Shown: positions 21,334 through 38,284 of the stretch, piece after piece
How positions within the stretch are numbered: the stretch's first letter is position 1
Layout: each line of letters begins with the position of its first letter
Assembly: GCA_936920195.1 (NCBI GenBank)
Contig: CAKZHE010000085.1
Location: forward strand, 1 to 43,202
Length of the DNA stretch: 43,202 nucleotides
Direction of reading: 5' to 3'
Source: an uncultured cyanobacterium
GTDB lineage: Bacteria > Cyanobacteriota > Cyanobacteriia > Cyanobacteriales > FACHB-T130
The notes under the pieces: model-generated
Told to the model about the DNA's origin: nothing
Databases searched by the model: none
Seen by the model: the letters and a program-made list of their open reading frames with translations, nothing else
Made by a program: the position numbers and the translations under genes

Positions 21334-22557
21334 ATGTTTAAGCGAATCATCTTAAAAAATTGGAAAAGCTTTCGTCATGCGGTGTTACCACTTGACCCAC
21401 TTACAGTTGTTATCGGGATCAACTCTAGTGGTAAATCTAATGCCGTTGAAGCATTGGAGTTTTTGCGATTGATAACATTAAGCAACGAAATAAAAACAGA
21501 TTTAATCTCATCTTCCTCTACCATTCGAGGTGGAGTAAATGGGATCGCATTCAAACCAGAAACTAGATTTACAATTGAAACTTTAATCGAAGCAGATCGA
21601 GAAAGTAGCGTTGATTTTTTATATACTATTTCTTTAGAAATAGAACCAAATTTTAAAAACATTCAAATATACCATGAATCATTAATAATGACAATCGATG
21701 GCGAGAAAAAAATATTTTTTGAAACATTGCCAGCTAATTCTGAATCGCTAGAAATTAAAGCATTAGTTCGCGATTATCTTTCCGGCTCAGAAGAAACAGA
21801 AAAACTATTATCAAGGCAACAGTCAATATTGAGCCAAGTAAAAACATCTGCTATCAACATTCAGATGAACTTTGTATTTCAAAAATTGAGAAATATATTT
21901 ATATTTAATCCCGAACCATCCAAAATGCGAAATTATTCTGCTCGTTCTGATACTTTGCAAAGTGATGGCTCTAATATAGCTGGGGTATTGGCAGATTTGC
22001 CAGATAGTCAGAAAACCGATGTTGAAAATACTTTATTAAAGTATATTCAACATTTGCCAGAAAAAGATATTAAAAAAGTTTGGGGAGAAGTGGTAGGGAG
22101 ACTAGGAAAAGATGCCATGCTTTACTGTACAGAAGAATGGCAGCCTGGTAAAACGACAGAAATTGATGCCACTACTATGTCAGACGGAACTTTACGTTTT
22201 ATTGCCATCATCACTGCACTTTTAACCCGACCAGAAAAAAGCCAAATAGTCATTGAGGATGTAGATAATGGCTTGCATCCATCTCGGATCAAGTTATTAT
22301 TAAGAATGTTAAAAGAAATTGGCGAACAACGAGAGATTGATATATTAGTGACTACCCATAATCCAGCTTTGCTAGATGCTTTAGAACCAGAAATGATGCC
22401 GTTTGTAATTGTGGCATATCGAGATCCAGAAACAGGAGAGAGTAAATTAACACCCTTAGAAGAGATTGTTAATTTTCCTAAATTATATGCCTCTAATTCT
22501 ATTGGTGAAATGGTAACTAAAGGTGCAGTTGAAAGAAGTCTTTCTCGAAAAAGTTAG
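21334..22557 (+). CDS. AAA/ABC-type ATPase (AAA_21, OLD-like)
   Basis: A 407-aa ATPase starting at ATG 21334. Walker A is GINSSGKS (residues 28-35). An ABC-like signature is SDGTLRFIAIITALL, Walker B is IVIEDVDNGLHPSR, and an H-loop-like VTTHNPALLDAL follows. Such RecF/SMC-like ATPases with N- and C-terminal halves around a variable insert are common in defence and toxin operons with a nuclease partner. The next gene starts 9 nt downstream and encodes a PIN-like protein, which fits. Codon use looks more A+T-rich than the surrounding genes and there is no HIP1 site, so transfer is likely. The catalytic motifs look intact; the biological role is inferred. Confidence 0.88.
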   Translation: MFKRIILKNWKSFRHAVLPLDPLTVVIGINSSGKSNAVEALEFLRLITLSNEIKTDLISSSSTIRGGVNGIAFKPETRFTIETLIEADRESSVDFLYTISLEIEPNFKNIQIYHESLIMTIDGEKKIFFETLPANSESLEIKALVRDYLSGSEETEKLLSRQQSILSQVKTSAINIQMNFVFQKLRNIFIFNPEPSKMRNYSARSDTLQSDGSNIAGVLADLPDSQKTDVENTLLKYIQHLPEKDIKKVWGEVVGRLGKDAMLYCTEEWQPGKTTEIDATTMSDGTLRFIAIITALLTRPEKSQIVIEDVDNGLHPSRIKLLLRMLKEIGEQREIDILVTTHNPALLDALEPEMMPFVIVAYRDPETGESKLTPLEEIVNFPKLYASNSIGEMVTKGAVERSLSRKS

Positions 22558-22566
22558 TTTAAACAA

Positions 22567-22845
22567 ATGAGGAAAGTATTAATTATCGATACTTCAGTTC
22601 TCTGTTGGGAAGGTGATGGCCTGAAAAAACTAGGCTCTGAATGGGAATCAGTAGTATCACAAAGAATATCTTTAGGCGATACTACTATTAAAATTCTAGC
22701 TGACTATTATTGTGATGAGAAAGGTTTTCAAGTAGAAATTATGACTGGTGACGACCAGCTAAAGTCATACGAGAGAACGCCAAAAATTACTCAACGGAGG
22801 AGAAGTGGGTCAACTGCCCCACCCACAAGGGGATGGGGCAGTTGA
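22567..22845 (+). CDS. Short PIN-like partner of the AAA ATPase, apparently internally deleted
   Basis: A 92-aa protein. It opens MRKVLIIDTSVLC, as PIN-like proteins paired with AAA_21 ATPases do. It then passes directly to SLGDTTIKILADYYC and VEIMTGDDQLKSYE, which in the full-length relatives I remember come near the C-terminus, after a central region of roughly 80-100 residues. Acidic residues D8, D54 and D77 remain, but the middle is missing. The last 12 or so residues (GSTAPPTRGWGS) are encoded by a hairpin repeat, and the stop codon lies inside that hairpin. It could be a decayed gene or a small working derivative; I favour a decayed one. Confidence 0.6.
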   Translation: MRKVLIIDTSVLCWEGDGLKKLGSEWESVVSQRISLGDTTIKILADYYCDEKGFQVEIMTGDDQLKSYERTPKITQRRRSGSTAPPTRGWGS

Positions 22846-22846: not shown

Positions 22847-22941
22847 TGTTATCTAAATTTTTTTGTTTTTTTATTAAGTCCTGATTAAGCGATGCCTTAT
22901 GAGTGAATATTATTTATCAAGTTATTTTTTTGGAGATAATC

Positions 22942-25290
22942 GTGAGCCAATTAAACAATTCCCCAAAAATCTCGGACTTGATTGGCGATCCTTTTGCCGC
23001 AGGCGGTAGTCGTTCCGTAGAAGCTTGGTTCTTAGGCTCTAGAGCCGAAAATCTGGATGAATTTGAAAAGCTCATTGTTGAGGCCGTTAGGGATCACGGA
23101 TTTTGGCGGCGAAATTTCCATCCCGGCGACCCTAGTTATATTACCGAAGAAGTCAAGCGCAATCCCGATTTTTTGCAAGCAATAGAACACACCAGAGATA
23201 GTTTTAGGGAACTCTTAGCATGGCTGAAAAAATCAGTACCGTTTTTTAGCTTGCGTTATCAGGGTCACATGAACTGGGAAACAACAATCCCCTCAATGTT
23301 AGGGTATTTTGCCACCATGCTCTACAACCCCAATAACGTTGCTTTTGAAGCTTCCACCGTCACCACTCTACTAGAAATGATTGTTGGTGACGATCTGTGT
23401 AGAATGTTAGGCTACTATGTGCCAACGGAAGCAGAAAAAGCTGAGGGCATGATAGCTCCTTGGGGTCACATTACCTCTGGGGGGACAGTGGCTAATTTGG
23501 AAGGATTGTGGGCAGAGAGGAACCTGAAATTTTATCCTTTCACCTTAAGGGAAGCGATCGCCGAAGCCCCAGAACTAGCTGCCGGAAAACAAATTACCAT
23601 TCGTTTGGCCTATGGACAGCTCAAGGAATTGTTGGAATTAGATACCTGGGAACTGCTCAATCTCAAGGCTGATGATATTTTGGAAATTCCCGATCGTCTC
23701 ACGAAAGAGTTCGGAATTCCAGCCCAAGATGTCAAAAAAGCCATTGGTGAAACTCCCTATACCCTGCAAAAGATGGGTATGAGAGCTTTTGCCAACAAAT
23801 TCCTGTCCGATGTCCCGGAACAGCCAGTCTTTTTTGTTCCCGGTACGAAACACTATTCTTGGCCTAAATCAGCTGCCATCTTAGGAATTGGCTCCAATCA
23901 AATGCGGGATGTTGGCATTGATATTAATGCCAGGATGCGGATTGATGAACTGAACAGTAAATTGCAAGAATGTCTTGAAAAACGCATTCCAGTCCTAGGA
24001 GTAGTGATGGTGATGGGTAGCACGGAAGAAAGTTCCATCGATCCCTTAGCCGATCTTCTTGAGATACGGGAGGAATTTCGCCAGCAAGGTTTAGAGTTTA
24101 GCATCCATGCTGATGCCGCTTGGGGCGGTTATCATGCCTGCTTGCTAGATCGTTCCGAAACCGATGCTTTCAGCGCTACAGATGCCCCTAGTCCAGGAGT
24201 AGGATTAAGCGCTTATGCCGAAAAGCATATGAATGCTTTAGTTCATGCCGATACCATCACTGTCGATCCCCACAAATCGGGCTACATTCCTTACCCCGCT
24301 GGAGCGCTATGCTATCGTAATGGGGCTATGCGCGATTTGCTCACCTTTATTGCCCCCTACGTTAATCATGGCGATGAAGAACCAAATGTGGGCAGCTATG
24401 GGGTAGAAGGTTCTAAACCGGGAGCCGCTGTCGCGGCTGTTTACCTGAGCCATAAAGTAATCCGCCCGGATTTGACTGGCTATGGTCAAATTATTGGTCG
24501 GGCAATGTTTAGCTGTAAGAAGCTATATTCCCGGCTATTGTGCATGGCTCGCCCAGAAGATCAGTTTGTGGTGGTTCCAGTGCCTCATTTGGCAGCAGCG
24601 ATTCCAGGGGCAAACAATGAGGCCAAAATTCAGTTTGTCCGCGATCGCATTGACCAAAAAACCAATGCCGAAATTCAGCAAGATGCTGAAGTGATGCAAA
24701 TTTTGCGGGAAATGGGGCCGGATCAAAATATTCTCACCTATGCATTCAATTTCAGAAATCCTGATGGCGACCTCAATACCGATCTTGACAAAGCCAATGC
24801 ACTGAATCAAGCCTTATACAAGATTCTGAGTATCAAAGCCGGATCTGATATCTATGGGTACAATTTGATTGTGAGTACCACTAGCTTTGAAGAAGAACAT
24901 TATGGAACCCTGTTTATGAACGATTATAAGCAGCGGTTGGGGGTGAGCGATCGCTCTAACAAACCCATTACAATCTTGCGTTCCACAGTCATGGACCCTT
25001 GGATTACAGAAGCCAAAGGTCGCCCATTTATTGACATCATTGAAGAAGAATTTCGCAATGCTGTCTCCCAAGCTTTGTTACAAACTTCCATCTTGCAAGT
25101 ATTTCAAAATATTGATAGTAACCAAAATGGTTATGTCAGTAAATCTGAAGTTACTACCCAATTGCGAACTTTGGGCTACACCGATCTGGAAATCGACAAC
25201 ATTTGGAATATTTCGGACTCCAACCAAGATGCCATTCTCTCCTATAATGAATTTCTGACTAATTTTGCGACCTTCCTGATTCTCAAATAG
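22942..25290 (+). CDS. PLP-dependent decarboxylase (group II) with two C-terminal EF-hands
   Basis: A 782-aa protein. The start is GTG 22942, preceded by TTTGGAG with 6-nt spacing; a GTG at 22903 is less likely. Residues 1-700 are a pyridoxal-dependent decarboxylase of the glutamate/tyrosine/aromatic amino-acid class, with GHMNWETTIPSMLGY, HITSGGTVANLEGLW, HADAAWGGYHACLL and the PLP lysine K445 in DPHKSGYIPYPAG. The substrate cannot be assigned. The end carries two Ca2+-binding EF-hand loops. One is DSNQNGYVSKSE at 725-736, a perfect 12-residue loop. The other is DSNQDAILSYNE at 759-770, with Ala in place of the usual Gly. Catalysis may thus be Ca2+-controlled, which is inference. A 15-bp hairpin follows. 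Confidence 0.9.
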   Translation: MSQLNNSPKISDLIGDPFAAGGSRSVEAWFLGSRAENLDEFEKLIVEAVRDHGFWRRNFHPGDPSYITEEVKRNPDFLQAIEHTRDSFRELLAWLKKSVPFFSLRYQGHMNWETTIPSMLGYFATMLYNPNNVAFEASTVTTLLEMIVGDDLCRMLGYYVPTEAEKAEGMIAPWGHITSGGTVANLEGLWAERNLKFYPFTLREAIAEAPELAAGKQITIRLAYGQLKELLELDTWELLNLKADDILEIPDRLTKEFGIPAQDVKKAIGETPYTLQKMGMRAFANKFLSDVPEQPVFFVPGTKHYSWPKSAAILGIGSNQMRDVGIDINARMRIDELNSKLQECLEKRIPVLGVVMVMGSTEESSIDPLADLLEIREEFRQQGLEFSIHADAAWGGYHACLLDRSETDAFSATDAPSPGVGLSAYAEKHMNALVHADTITVDPHKSGYIPYPAGALCYRNGAMRDLLTFIAPYVNHGDEEPNVGSYGVEGSKPGAAVAAVYLSHKVIRPDLTGYGQIIGRAMFSCKKLYSRLLCMARPEDQFVVVPVPHLAAAIPGANNEAKIQFVRDRIDQKTNAEIQQDAEVMQILREMGPDQNILTYAFNFRNPDGDLNTDLDKANALNQALYKILSIKAGSDIYGYNLIVSTTSFEEEHYGTLFMNDYKQRLGVSDRSNKPITILRSTVMDPWITEAKGRPFIDIIEEEFRNAVSQALLQTSILQVFQNIDSNQNGYVSKSEVTTQLRTLGYTDLEIDNIWNISDSNQDAILSYNEFLTNFATFLILK

Positions 25291-25366: not shown

Positions 25367-25611
25367 CTAGGGACTACCAAAACCTCCCAACGCAGTTTTA
25401 CTAAAACTAGCTGCCCCTTGACTGGCTCGCACCGCTGACTGGGAGAACACCTGAAAGGCTTTGCGAATGTCATTTTTGCTATTTTTGGGGGTAATTACCC
25501 ACTCATCGCGAATACCCATCTCGCGGAAAAAATCTTGGACATTAGTGCTACCGTTATCAATTCCCATTGCCGCAATAATGTGATTTTCTGCCATTAACAT
25601 ATCTTTATGTT
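25367..25611 (-). pseudogene. Duplicated 3' end of the VWA gene
   Basis: About 245 bp are nearly identical (roughly nine differences by my count) to the 3' end of the VWA gene at 26659-27450, from the stop codon back to codons near MLMAENHIIA. It encodes only the last 77 residues, with most changes silent, and has no MIDAS motif. On the far side the similarity stops abruptly after CATATCTTT (25603-25611). It is therefore a truncated copy with no likely product of its own. Together with the full gene it brackets the amidase gene. Confidence 0.85.
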
Positions 25612-25851: not shown

Positions 25852-26598
25852 ATGAAGTTTGGTATTGATATGGGTCATAATTGTCCTCCACACGATACTG
25901 GTGCTAGCGGTTGGGCACAAGAAGATAATCTGACAAGATCTGTTGGCACTAGCTTGATTAGCAAACTGCAAGCATTAGGGCATCAGGTAGTTGATTGTAC
26001 TGCCACTCGTGCTAGCAGTGTTAATGATTCTTTGCGACAAAGAGTTCAGAAAGCTAATAGTCAGAACGTAGATTTTTTTGTTTCCATTCACTTTAACGCC
26101 CATAATGGCAGCGCTCATGGCACTGAAATTTATGCCATTAGTAGTACAGCCAGAGAAGTAGCTCAAAATGTTCTGAAGCAAATAGTTCAATTAGGCTTTA
26201 AAGATCGCGGAGTTAAATCATCAGGATTTTATGTAATCAGAAATACTAAGATGCCAGCTATTCTGATAGAATGCTGCTTCTGTGACTCTGAAATAGATCG
26301 CAGTAAATTTGATGCCACGAAAATGGCAGCCGCGATCGCTACAGGTTTAACAGGCCAGCATCCTAGACCTAAAAACTATAAGCTACAGGTGACGCAAAAT
26401 ACTGTTTTAAAACCCTCCACCGAACAATCAACTAGCTTGCCTCCAGAAAGTTTAGTAGACATTCAGCTAGGGGAATACAAAATAGTTGATTTTAGCTTTG
26501 AAGAAGGCCATTATTCAGTGGTTTGGCCTGATGAGAGTAAAGGCCACCGCCGCGAACATTTTGTATTTGCAGGTCATGCAAAAGTAGTTGCTGTTTAA
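25852..26598 (+). CDS. N-acetylmuramoyl-L-alanine amidase (Amidase_3 type)
   Basis: A 248-aa zinc amidase that would cut the bond between muramic acid and the peptide stem of peptidoglycan. Zinc and catalytic residues are present: H9 (GIDMGHNC), E24 (WAQEDNL), H80 (FFVSIHFNAHNG) and E140 (MPAILIECCF). The catalytic domain covers about residues 1-170. The last 70 residues, after a linker, are unrecognised. No signal peptide is visible, unlike the septal AmiC enzymes, so it resembles endolysins or enzymes exported by another route. It lies between a partial and a full copy of the oppositely oriented VWA gene, and may have arrived with the duplication. Confidence 0.92.
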   Translation: MKFGIDMGHNCPPHDTGASGWAQEDNLTRSVGTSLISKLQALGHQVVDCTATRASSVNDSLRQRVQKANSQNVDFFVSIHFNAHNGSAHGTEIYAISSTAREVAQNVLKQIVQLGFKDRGVKSSGFYVIRNTKMPAILIECCFCDSEIDRSKFDATKMAAAIATGLTGQHPRPKNYKLQVTQNTVLKPSTEQSTSLPPESLVDIQLGEYKIVDFSFEEGHYSVVWPDESKGHRREHFVFAGHAKVVAV

Positions 26599-26658: not shown

Positions 26659-27450
26659 TTAGGGACTACCAAAACCTCCCAAGGCAGTTTTACTAAAACT
26701 AGCTGCCCCTTGACTGGCTCGCACCGCTGACTGAGAAAACACCTGAAAGGCTTTGCGAATGTCATTTTTGCTATTTTTGGGGGTAATTACCCACTCATCG
26801 CGAATGCCCATCTCGCGGAAAACATCTTGGAAATTAGTGCTGCCATTATCAATTCCCATTGCCGCAATAATGTGATTTTCTGCCATCAACATATCTTTGA
26901 CAATGGAAGCTACTGTTTTGGCATTTGCCCTGGCAGAATGTTCGTCAGCCCCATCAGTAATAATTAGGGTAATAGTTCGCACAGGAACACCATTATCCGC
27001 AAATTCTTGCGACTTGGCTAACACTGTGCCTAATAATACCACAGTTTGATCGTATAGGGGCGTACCTTCATTGGGTTGGTAGTTCCCCGCATCCATTCGT
27101 ACTGCTTGTTCAATAGCACAATAGGGATAGAGAACATATCCATTGAGATAGCGATTGTGGGCGAGAATATTGTCTTTTTGTTTGGAAGAAATTAAAGCAT
27201 CTAGGACAGCATTGTGTCCATCTCGAACTGCTTGGGTATTCCCAGAATAGGCAATTGAACCGGAATCATCGGGCATGATAGTTAGAAGTACCACTTCGCT
27301 CGCCATCACATCATCGACACTTACGCCTAATCCAGCTTGAATTTGTGCGCCAATATCGACCACATTTAAAGCTTGGAAGGAAGCAGTAGAAAGTAAGCCT
27401 TCTTCTTGGGCAGATTGAAACAGATTATTGAGGTTAGGTGTTTGGCTCAT
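26659..27450 (-). CDS. VWA-domain protein, YegL-like in context
   Basis: A 263-aa cytosolic protein with a von Willebrand factor A fold. The metal-ion-dependent adhesion site is complete: D61-x-S63-x-S65 in PDDSGSI, the threonine in NEGTPLYDQ and the aspartate in LIITDGADEHS. No signal peptide or membrane segment is present. The C-terminal tail (QGAASFSKTALGGFGSP) is Ser/Gly-rich. It is the most downstream of four minus-strand genes that include a kinase and a PP2C phosphatase, the same trio as E. coli YegL/YegI/YegK. Its job there is unknown; VWA proteins commonly act as scaffolds. Its 3' third is duplicated at 25367-25611. Confidence 0.9.
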   Translation of the reverse strand: MSQTPNLNNLFQSAQEEGLLSTASFQALNVVDIGAQIQAGLGVSVDDVMASEVVLLTIMPDDSGSIAYSGNTQAVRDGHNAVLDALISSKQKDNILAHNRYLNGYVLYPYCAIEQAVRMDAGNYQPNEGTPLYDQTVVLLGTVLAKSQEFADNGVPVRTITLIITDGADEHSARANAKTVASIVKDMLMAENHIIAAMGIDNGSTNFQDVFREMGIRDEWVITPKNSKNDIRKAFQVFSQSAVRASQGAASFSKTALGGFGSP

Positions 27451-37751: not shown

Positions 37752-38284
37752 AAAGTCACGAAGCGGTTTTAGGAAGGGTTGGCAGAAGGAAAGATTTAGG
37801 GGGGAATTGGCTGGAAAGCTTTGAAAATCAGCTTAGGCGGCAGGATTATTCAGATATATGGGCGCACCTTTTCCATTATGAGAACAGCATACCAAATCGG
37901 TCAAAAATTAGCAAGGGGGTAAAATCGCTTTTTTTAAACCAATTTTTTTGCTGCTCATTTGGGGCGATCGCTCATCAACAAGGAGACTTTGGATATCACC
38001 AAAAGGCTAGTGGAAGGTTTCCCCTCTGTTACCCAAAATGTAACTATCGCCCAGAGCGATCGCTGTTGTGAAATTTTGGGAGTTCTTCCGAAAGTCACGA
38101 AGCGGCTTTTAGGAAGGGTTGGCAGAAGGAAAGATTTGGGGGGAATTGGCTGGAAAGCTTTGAAAATCAGCTTAGGCGGCAAAATTATTCAGATATATGG
38201 GCGCACCTTTTCCATTATGAGAACAGCATACCAAATTGCTCAAAAATTAACAAGGGGGTGCGATCGCTTTTTTTAAACCAATTT
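37752..38284. repeat. Direct duplication of about 194 bp with a 145-bp spacer
   Basis: The copies at 37752-37945 and 38091-38284 are about 90% or more identical. Both run from AAAGTCACGAAGCGG to TTTTTTTAAACCAATTT and share TATATGGGCGCACC and TATGAGAACAGCATACC. The first copy starts two nt after the nadB stop codon. The spacer (37946-38090) holds two HIP1 sites. The spacer plus the second copy can be read as a 105-codon frame, but it has no recognisable motif and the first copy does not preserve it, so I do not call a gene. Confidence 0.88.

Follow-up and report, generated by a model that had tools for sequence, protein, structure and literature searches.

In the DNA stretch analyzed here (the window, 43,202 nucleotides of cyanobacterial sequence), a gene of the forward strand was found to encode a PLP-dependent decarboxylase that ends in a pair of EF-hands. 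According to the reading that we prefer, with a probability of about 0.55, the protein would be an aromatic-type L-amino acid decarboxylase of the tyrosine decarboxylase/PcncAAAD group, whose EF-hand pair would bind Ca2+, raising the activity or locking the active form. This reading combines sequence comparison, structure models and analogy with PcncAAAD, the noncanonical aromatic amino acid decarboxylase of Psilocybe cubensis (PDB 6ebn; PMC13062060).

The decarboxylase and its predicted substrate

The open reading frame covers positions 22903-25290 (+), with 795 codons open from the first GTG (22903). Translation most likely starts at GTG 22942, leading to a protein of 782 aa, since a GGAG motif stands just upstream of this codon; residues are numbered on the 782-aa form unless the 795-aa form is named. 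The features of the gene are the following:

22942-25290, + strand: whole gene, PLP-dependent decarboxylase with C-terminal EF-hand pair, 782 aa
22932-22935, + strand: GGAG, Shine-Dalgarno-like, ahead of GTG 22942 (sequence)
23338-23352, + strand: rim helix VAFEA, residues 133-137, identical to PcncAAAD 131-135
24274-24276, + strand: PLP lysine K445 in DPHKSG (sequence)
24358-24360, + strand: catalytic-loop Tyr Y473, aligned to PcncAAAD Tyr471
24667-25017, + strand: tyr_de_CO2_C domain, residues 576-692 (Pfam PF21391)
24826-24873, + strand: lid loop, residues ~629-644, aligned to PcncAAAD
24829-24831, + strand: lid-loop S630, aligned to site-A Ser632 of PcncAAAD
24847-24849, + strand: lid-loop D636, aligned to site-A Glu638 of PcncAAAD
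25027-25113, + strand: long helix 696-724, the last catalytic-domain helix running into EF-hand 1 (AlphaFold2 model)
25087-25260, + strand: EF-hand pair (PF13499; Pfam and separate fold of the tail)
25114-25149, + strand: EF loop 1, DSNQNGYVSKSE, residues 725-736 (sequence)
25216-25251, + strand: EF loop 2, DSNQDAILSYNE, residues 759-770 (sequence)

When the open reading frame was scanned with Pfam, Pyridoxal_deC (PF00282) reached 69.6 bits for a cut-off of 27, as expected of a group II PLP decarboxylase, and tyr_de_CO2_C (53.7 bits) also exceeded its cut-off. EF-hand_7 (34.4 bits, cut-off 30) and EF-hand_1 (26.1 bits, cut-off 25.4) were matched as well. Besides, K445 was invariant in the 27 family members aligned. 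The Pfam scores and the 782-aa numbering thus bear out an earlier note on this DNA, which had described a complete group II decarboxylase with K445 in DPHKSG followed by an EF-hand pair. The coordinates that it gave, 25078-25290, fit the EF tail alone and not the whole enzyme, the catalytic part of which extends over about 22942-25080.

The best solved relative of the protein was PcncAAAD (6ebn), both by phmmer (553 bits) and by profile search (754 bits). The same structure came first with Foldseek (E 5e-54) and with VIA-align (Z 38.5, rmsd 2.8, 667 residues), where residues 21-721 of the model were superposed on residues 18-718 of the chain; the bacterial tyrosine decarboxylase 5hsj came next (Z 37.3), and 6ebn together with bacterial tyrosine decarboxylases led both structural rankings. 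Among the NCBIfam models, the tyrosine decarboxylase model TIGR03811 ranked first with 367.5 bits, below its equivalog cut-off of 905. The enzyme is therefore a relative, and not a member, of the enterococcal-type tyrosine decarboxylase equivalog. It has the catalytic fold with tyr_de_CO2_C in common with the tyrosine decarboxylases of Lactobacillus brevis and Enterococcus faecalis (5hsi/5hsj, 7cwx; TIGR03811), whereas these are only 28-34% identical, ~150 residues shorter, and themselves devoid of a C-terminal appendage and of an acid in the lid loop. Two active-site residues of LbTDC, Y398 and S586, have identical counterparts here (Y451 and S681), and their mutation in LbTDC alters activity and substrate binding (PMC4904194). 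Because of the nearest solved relatives, the NCBIfam ranking, and the conservation of the PLP lysine and of the LbTDC Y398/S586 equivalents, the substrate is probably an aromatic amino acid, judging from sequence and models.

The earlier note had instead linked the gene to glutamate decarboxylation and GABA, by analogy with plant glutamate decarboxylase (GAD). A glutamate (or aspartate) decarboxylase, with an output of GABA or beta-alanine controlled by Ca2+ as it is with calmodulin in plants, would share the group II fold, and G328, alone among the EF-bearing genomes examined, has an aldehyde dehydrogenase gene (PF00171, L036:10011-11390) immediately after the EF-hand decarboxylase gene, in the same orientation. 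We nevertheless consider this highly improbable: the GAD model TIGR01788 scored 26.8 bits for a cut-off of 380, on which ground GAD membership was dropped, PanP scored 120.7 bits for a cut-off of 606, the closest structures belong to aromatic amino acid decarboxylases, 6ebn and tyrosine decarboxylases foremost, and the active-site residues of tyrosine decarboxylase are kept. The plant enzyme does offer a parallel as a group II decarboxylase under C-terminal control by a calmodulin-type EF-hand module, as proposed here; however, in plants calmodulin is a protein of its own, which binds to a peptide at the C-terminus of the enzyme, and the low GAD score makes the enzyme itself only a distant relative. 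The neighborhood provided no clue to the substrate, as no gene family recurs beside the decarboxylase in EF-bearing genomes.

At the column of Y473, Val was observed in five relatives (L013, L014, L022, L017 and L024) distributed over three tree branches. In plant enzymes, altering the catalytic-loop Tyr leads to aldehyde synthases. By analogy, the Val-bearing relatives may yield aldehydes instead of amines.

The EF-hand tail across relatives

The searches drew on overlapping sets, with 386 genomes from the phylum as a whole, 388 from the class, 389 from the order, and 60 relatives, and one scan of genome contigs was added. The decarboxylase family is sparse, being present in 24 of the 389 genomes of the order and absent from the five other genomes searched of the window's own family. 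The combination of decarboxylase and EF-hands, for which the earlier note had proposed a search, was retrieved from nine other cyanobacterial genomes. In total, the EF tail was found in ten distinct proteins, that of the window and L004, L005, L006, L017 (from Waterburya agarophytonicola, identical to L021), L018, L019, L020, L023 and L024. A frameshift or an assembly fusion was ruled out, as the same fusion occurs in the nine other genomes. The architecture was not found in a literature search, and this is weak evidence of novelty as most subscription papers lay outside the search.

Thirteen other close relatives have no EF tail. Twelve of them end soon after the catalytic domain, while L014 (L014:1402-3807, 60% identical) continues into a LysM domain standing where the EF-hand pair stands in the EF-bearing proteins. 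Modules thus seem to be exchanged at the C-terminus (EF-hand, LysM or none). In eight EF-less or LysM relatives, no EF-hand remnant was seen past the stop codon. The EF tail was not found either in plasmid-borne proteobacterial relatives, in which the match ends at about residue 725 of 795 (795-aa numbering). A tree of 28 rows built with a quick method grouped L001 with L005, a protein from outside the window's order, with 99% SH-aLRT, and required three changes of EF state. One gain followed by two losses may account for these changes, and repeated gain is possible.

The EF-bearing proteins share 55-62% identity with that of the window in their catalytic parts and 27-47% in their tails. EF-hand_7 was matched by all ten EF-bearing members scanned, and no more than three proteins of the entire 5.7-Mb genome exceed its cut-off; the Pfam scores and this conservation rule out a chance EF-like motif. 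Mean entropy over the ten proteins was 0.54 bits at positions 1, 3, 5 and 12 of both loops vs 1.42 bits for the whole tail, and eight tail columns chosen at random reached an equally low value in 0.04% of draws (p ~4e-4). In three pairs, dN/dS was 0.13-0.27 for the tail and 0.09-0.13 for the catalytic domain, i.e., slightly higher in the tail and far below 1. From these values, the tail is a domain under purifying selection in which the Ca2+-ligand positions matter most.

Folded alone, the tail was helical, with a mean pLDDT of 83 and a pTM of 0.64. The fold matched that of 3mse (Z 12.3), of calmodulin lobes and of troponin C (1tn4; Z 10.8, with 77 residues superposed at an rmsd of 1.6). These Z values alone would be modest for a helical model, though sequence and fold agree. 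The tail is thus made of two helix-loop-helix units with 12-residue loops, the ligand positions and the fold of a calmodulin lobe, as is typical of an EF-hand pair. As the earlier note had pointed out, loop 2 carries Ala at position 6, where Gly is expected. Across the EF-bearing relatives this position is A, S, G, N or E, yet ligand positions 1, 3, 5 and 12 are kept; Ala would therefore be a family trait, and loop 2 need not be dead. The EF-hand pair would very likely bind Ca2+.

Ca2+ precedent and possible mechanism

PcncAAAD offers a direct precedent for Ca2+ control. Its kcat increases 6.9-fold with Ca2+, the enzyme is inactive without its C-terminal domain, and the latter (residues 718-1013) is a non-homologous appendage of two beta-barrels (PMC13062060). 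The ligands of its main site A come partly from the lid loop on the catalytic-domain side (Ser632, Glu638 and the backbone of Gln629) and partly from the C-terminal domain (Asp971), and this site keeps the lid loop in position above rim helix 131-135 (PMC13062060). The catalytic domain of the cyanobacterial protein is homologous to that of PcncAAAD from end to end, with ~40% identity in the fold alignment. The PLP lysine, the catalytic-loop Tyr and the rim helix VAFEA are identical, and the Ser and the acid of the lid loop are kept, with Asp636 replacing Glu638. In both proteins, the catalytic part gives way at an equivalent position to a C-terminal domain with Ca2+ sites (predicted in the cyanobacterium), as residues 21-721 are paired with 18-718 and the fungal domain begins at 718. 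However, the fungal domain is a 296-residue double beta-barrel, which supplies Asp971-Asp973, whereas the cyanobacterial tail is a helical EF-hand pair of ~70 residues; no counterpart of Asp971 was identified in the cyanobacterial protein, and Ca2+ activation was measured in the fungus while it is predicted here. Hence, at one and the same junction, two enzymes of this family bear modules that are unrelated to each other, with Ca2+ sites that are known in one case and expected in the other. Ca2+ control, described in the earlier note as unusual, appears less isolated with such a precedent in the family, and control within a single chain, which it had also proposed, is plausible given a conserved fused EF-hand pair and a nearest solved relative activated by Ca2+ through its C-terminal domain.

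The full-length AlphaFold2 model (monomer, without ions) had a pLDDT of 83.9 and a pTM of 0.84, with values of mostly 84-89 in the EF region. In this model, the last catalytic-domain helix runs on without a break into the helix entering EF loop 1, a continuity that would suit direct mechanical coupling between the EF module and the core. By analogy with PcncAAAD, regulation of the decarboxylase by Ca2+ is rather likely. According to the mechanism that we propose, Ca2+ would fill both loops and the EF module would become ordered. Through its first helix, which would prolong the last helix of the catalytic domain, the ordered module would stabilize the C-terminal part of this domain, including the lid loop capping the rim helix of the active site. 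In the Psilocybe enzyme, this stabilization is provided by the unrelated double-beta-barrel domain. We infer in this scheme the binding of Ca2+, the direction of control (activation), the contact of the EF module with the lid loop and the substrate. In the alignment, the rim helix and the lid-loop Ser/Asp are kept equally well in close EF-less relatives and do not track the EF domain, so that they should not be taken for a surface shaped to receive the EF module. Metal binding at the lid loop may predate the EF domain and be independent of it, and the EF-less relatives are presumably active without this domain.

The helix continuity in the model would also agree with a constitutive structural role, in which the loops would always be filled with Ca2+ or Mg2+ and would stabilize the C-terminus or the dimer without switching in the cell. 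Close relatives lacking the EF domain or carrying LysM instead, the frequent loss of Gly at position 6 of loop 2, and the Ca2+ effect in PcncAAAD, which is partly a structural stabilization (PMC13062060), point the same way. Nonetheless, such a role is rather unlikely, as all ligand positions of both loops are kept in ten proteins despite the low identity of their tails, which a prop would not strictly need, and the protein is akin to an enzyme with a Ca2+-dependent kcat. Calmodulin-like lobes often bind partners. In line with this and with the apparent module swapping at the C-terminus, the EF-hand pair could be a Ca2+-dependent adaptor recruiting a partner protein or a membrane, leaving catalysis unchanged. 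This we hold to be quite improbable, since no conserved neighbor gene that might encode a partner was found and the helix continuity in the model suggests coupling to the core.

If Ca2+ does control catalysis as in the preferred reading, this would be a Ca2+-gated enzyme in a group with almost no direct Ca2+ targets known. Ca2+ signals are documented in cyanobacteria while the proteins reading them are nearly unknown. CSE (Asr1131) of Anabaena sp. PCC 7120, a two-EF-hand Ca2+ protein, has been called the only Ca2+ sensor known in Anabaena; it is a free-standing small protein (234-bp gene), unfused to any enzyme (PMC7065334), in contrast to the protein studied here. With EF-hands built into the enzyme itself, the decarboxylase is a direct candidate Ca2+ target in cyanobacteria, and one that is easily purified. 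More tentatively, and at less than even odds, Ca2+ control may have been gained twice in one decarboxylase family, by the addition of EF-hands in cyanobacteria and of a double beta-barrel in fungi. Both modules would then share their attachment point and their target, the lid-rim structure, and the cyanobacterial enzyme would be a Ca2+-gated amine producer made of a single chain. With it, the PcncAAAD family would offer a second example of Ca2+ control, independent of the fungal one, and a different module would be available for testing the published lid-rim mechanism. The decarboxylase might also serve biocatalysis as a Ca2+-switchable enzyme.

Neighboring DNA

Upstream of the decarboxylase, a 92-codon open reading frame (22567-22842) comes after an AAA_21 ATPase gene (21334-22557) and is followed by the inverted repeat GTCAACTGCCCC ... 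GGGGCAGTTGAC. No Pfam match was obtained for this frame, which is perhaps a truncated partner gene. Downstream, a 239-bp direct repeat (25368-25606 and 26660-26898, 96% identical) flanks an N-acetylmuramoyl-L-alanine amidase gene (25852-26598). It consists of the 3' end of minus-strand gene 26659-27450 and of an incomplete duplicate of this end. Another direct repeat of ~194 bp was observed at 37752-37945 and 38091-38284, with 95% identity between its copies.
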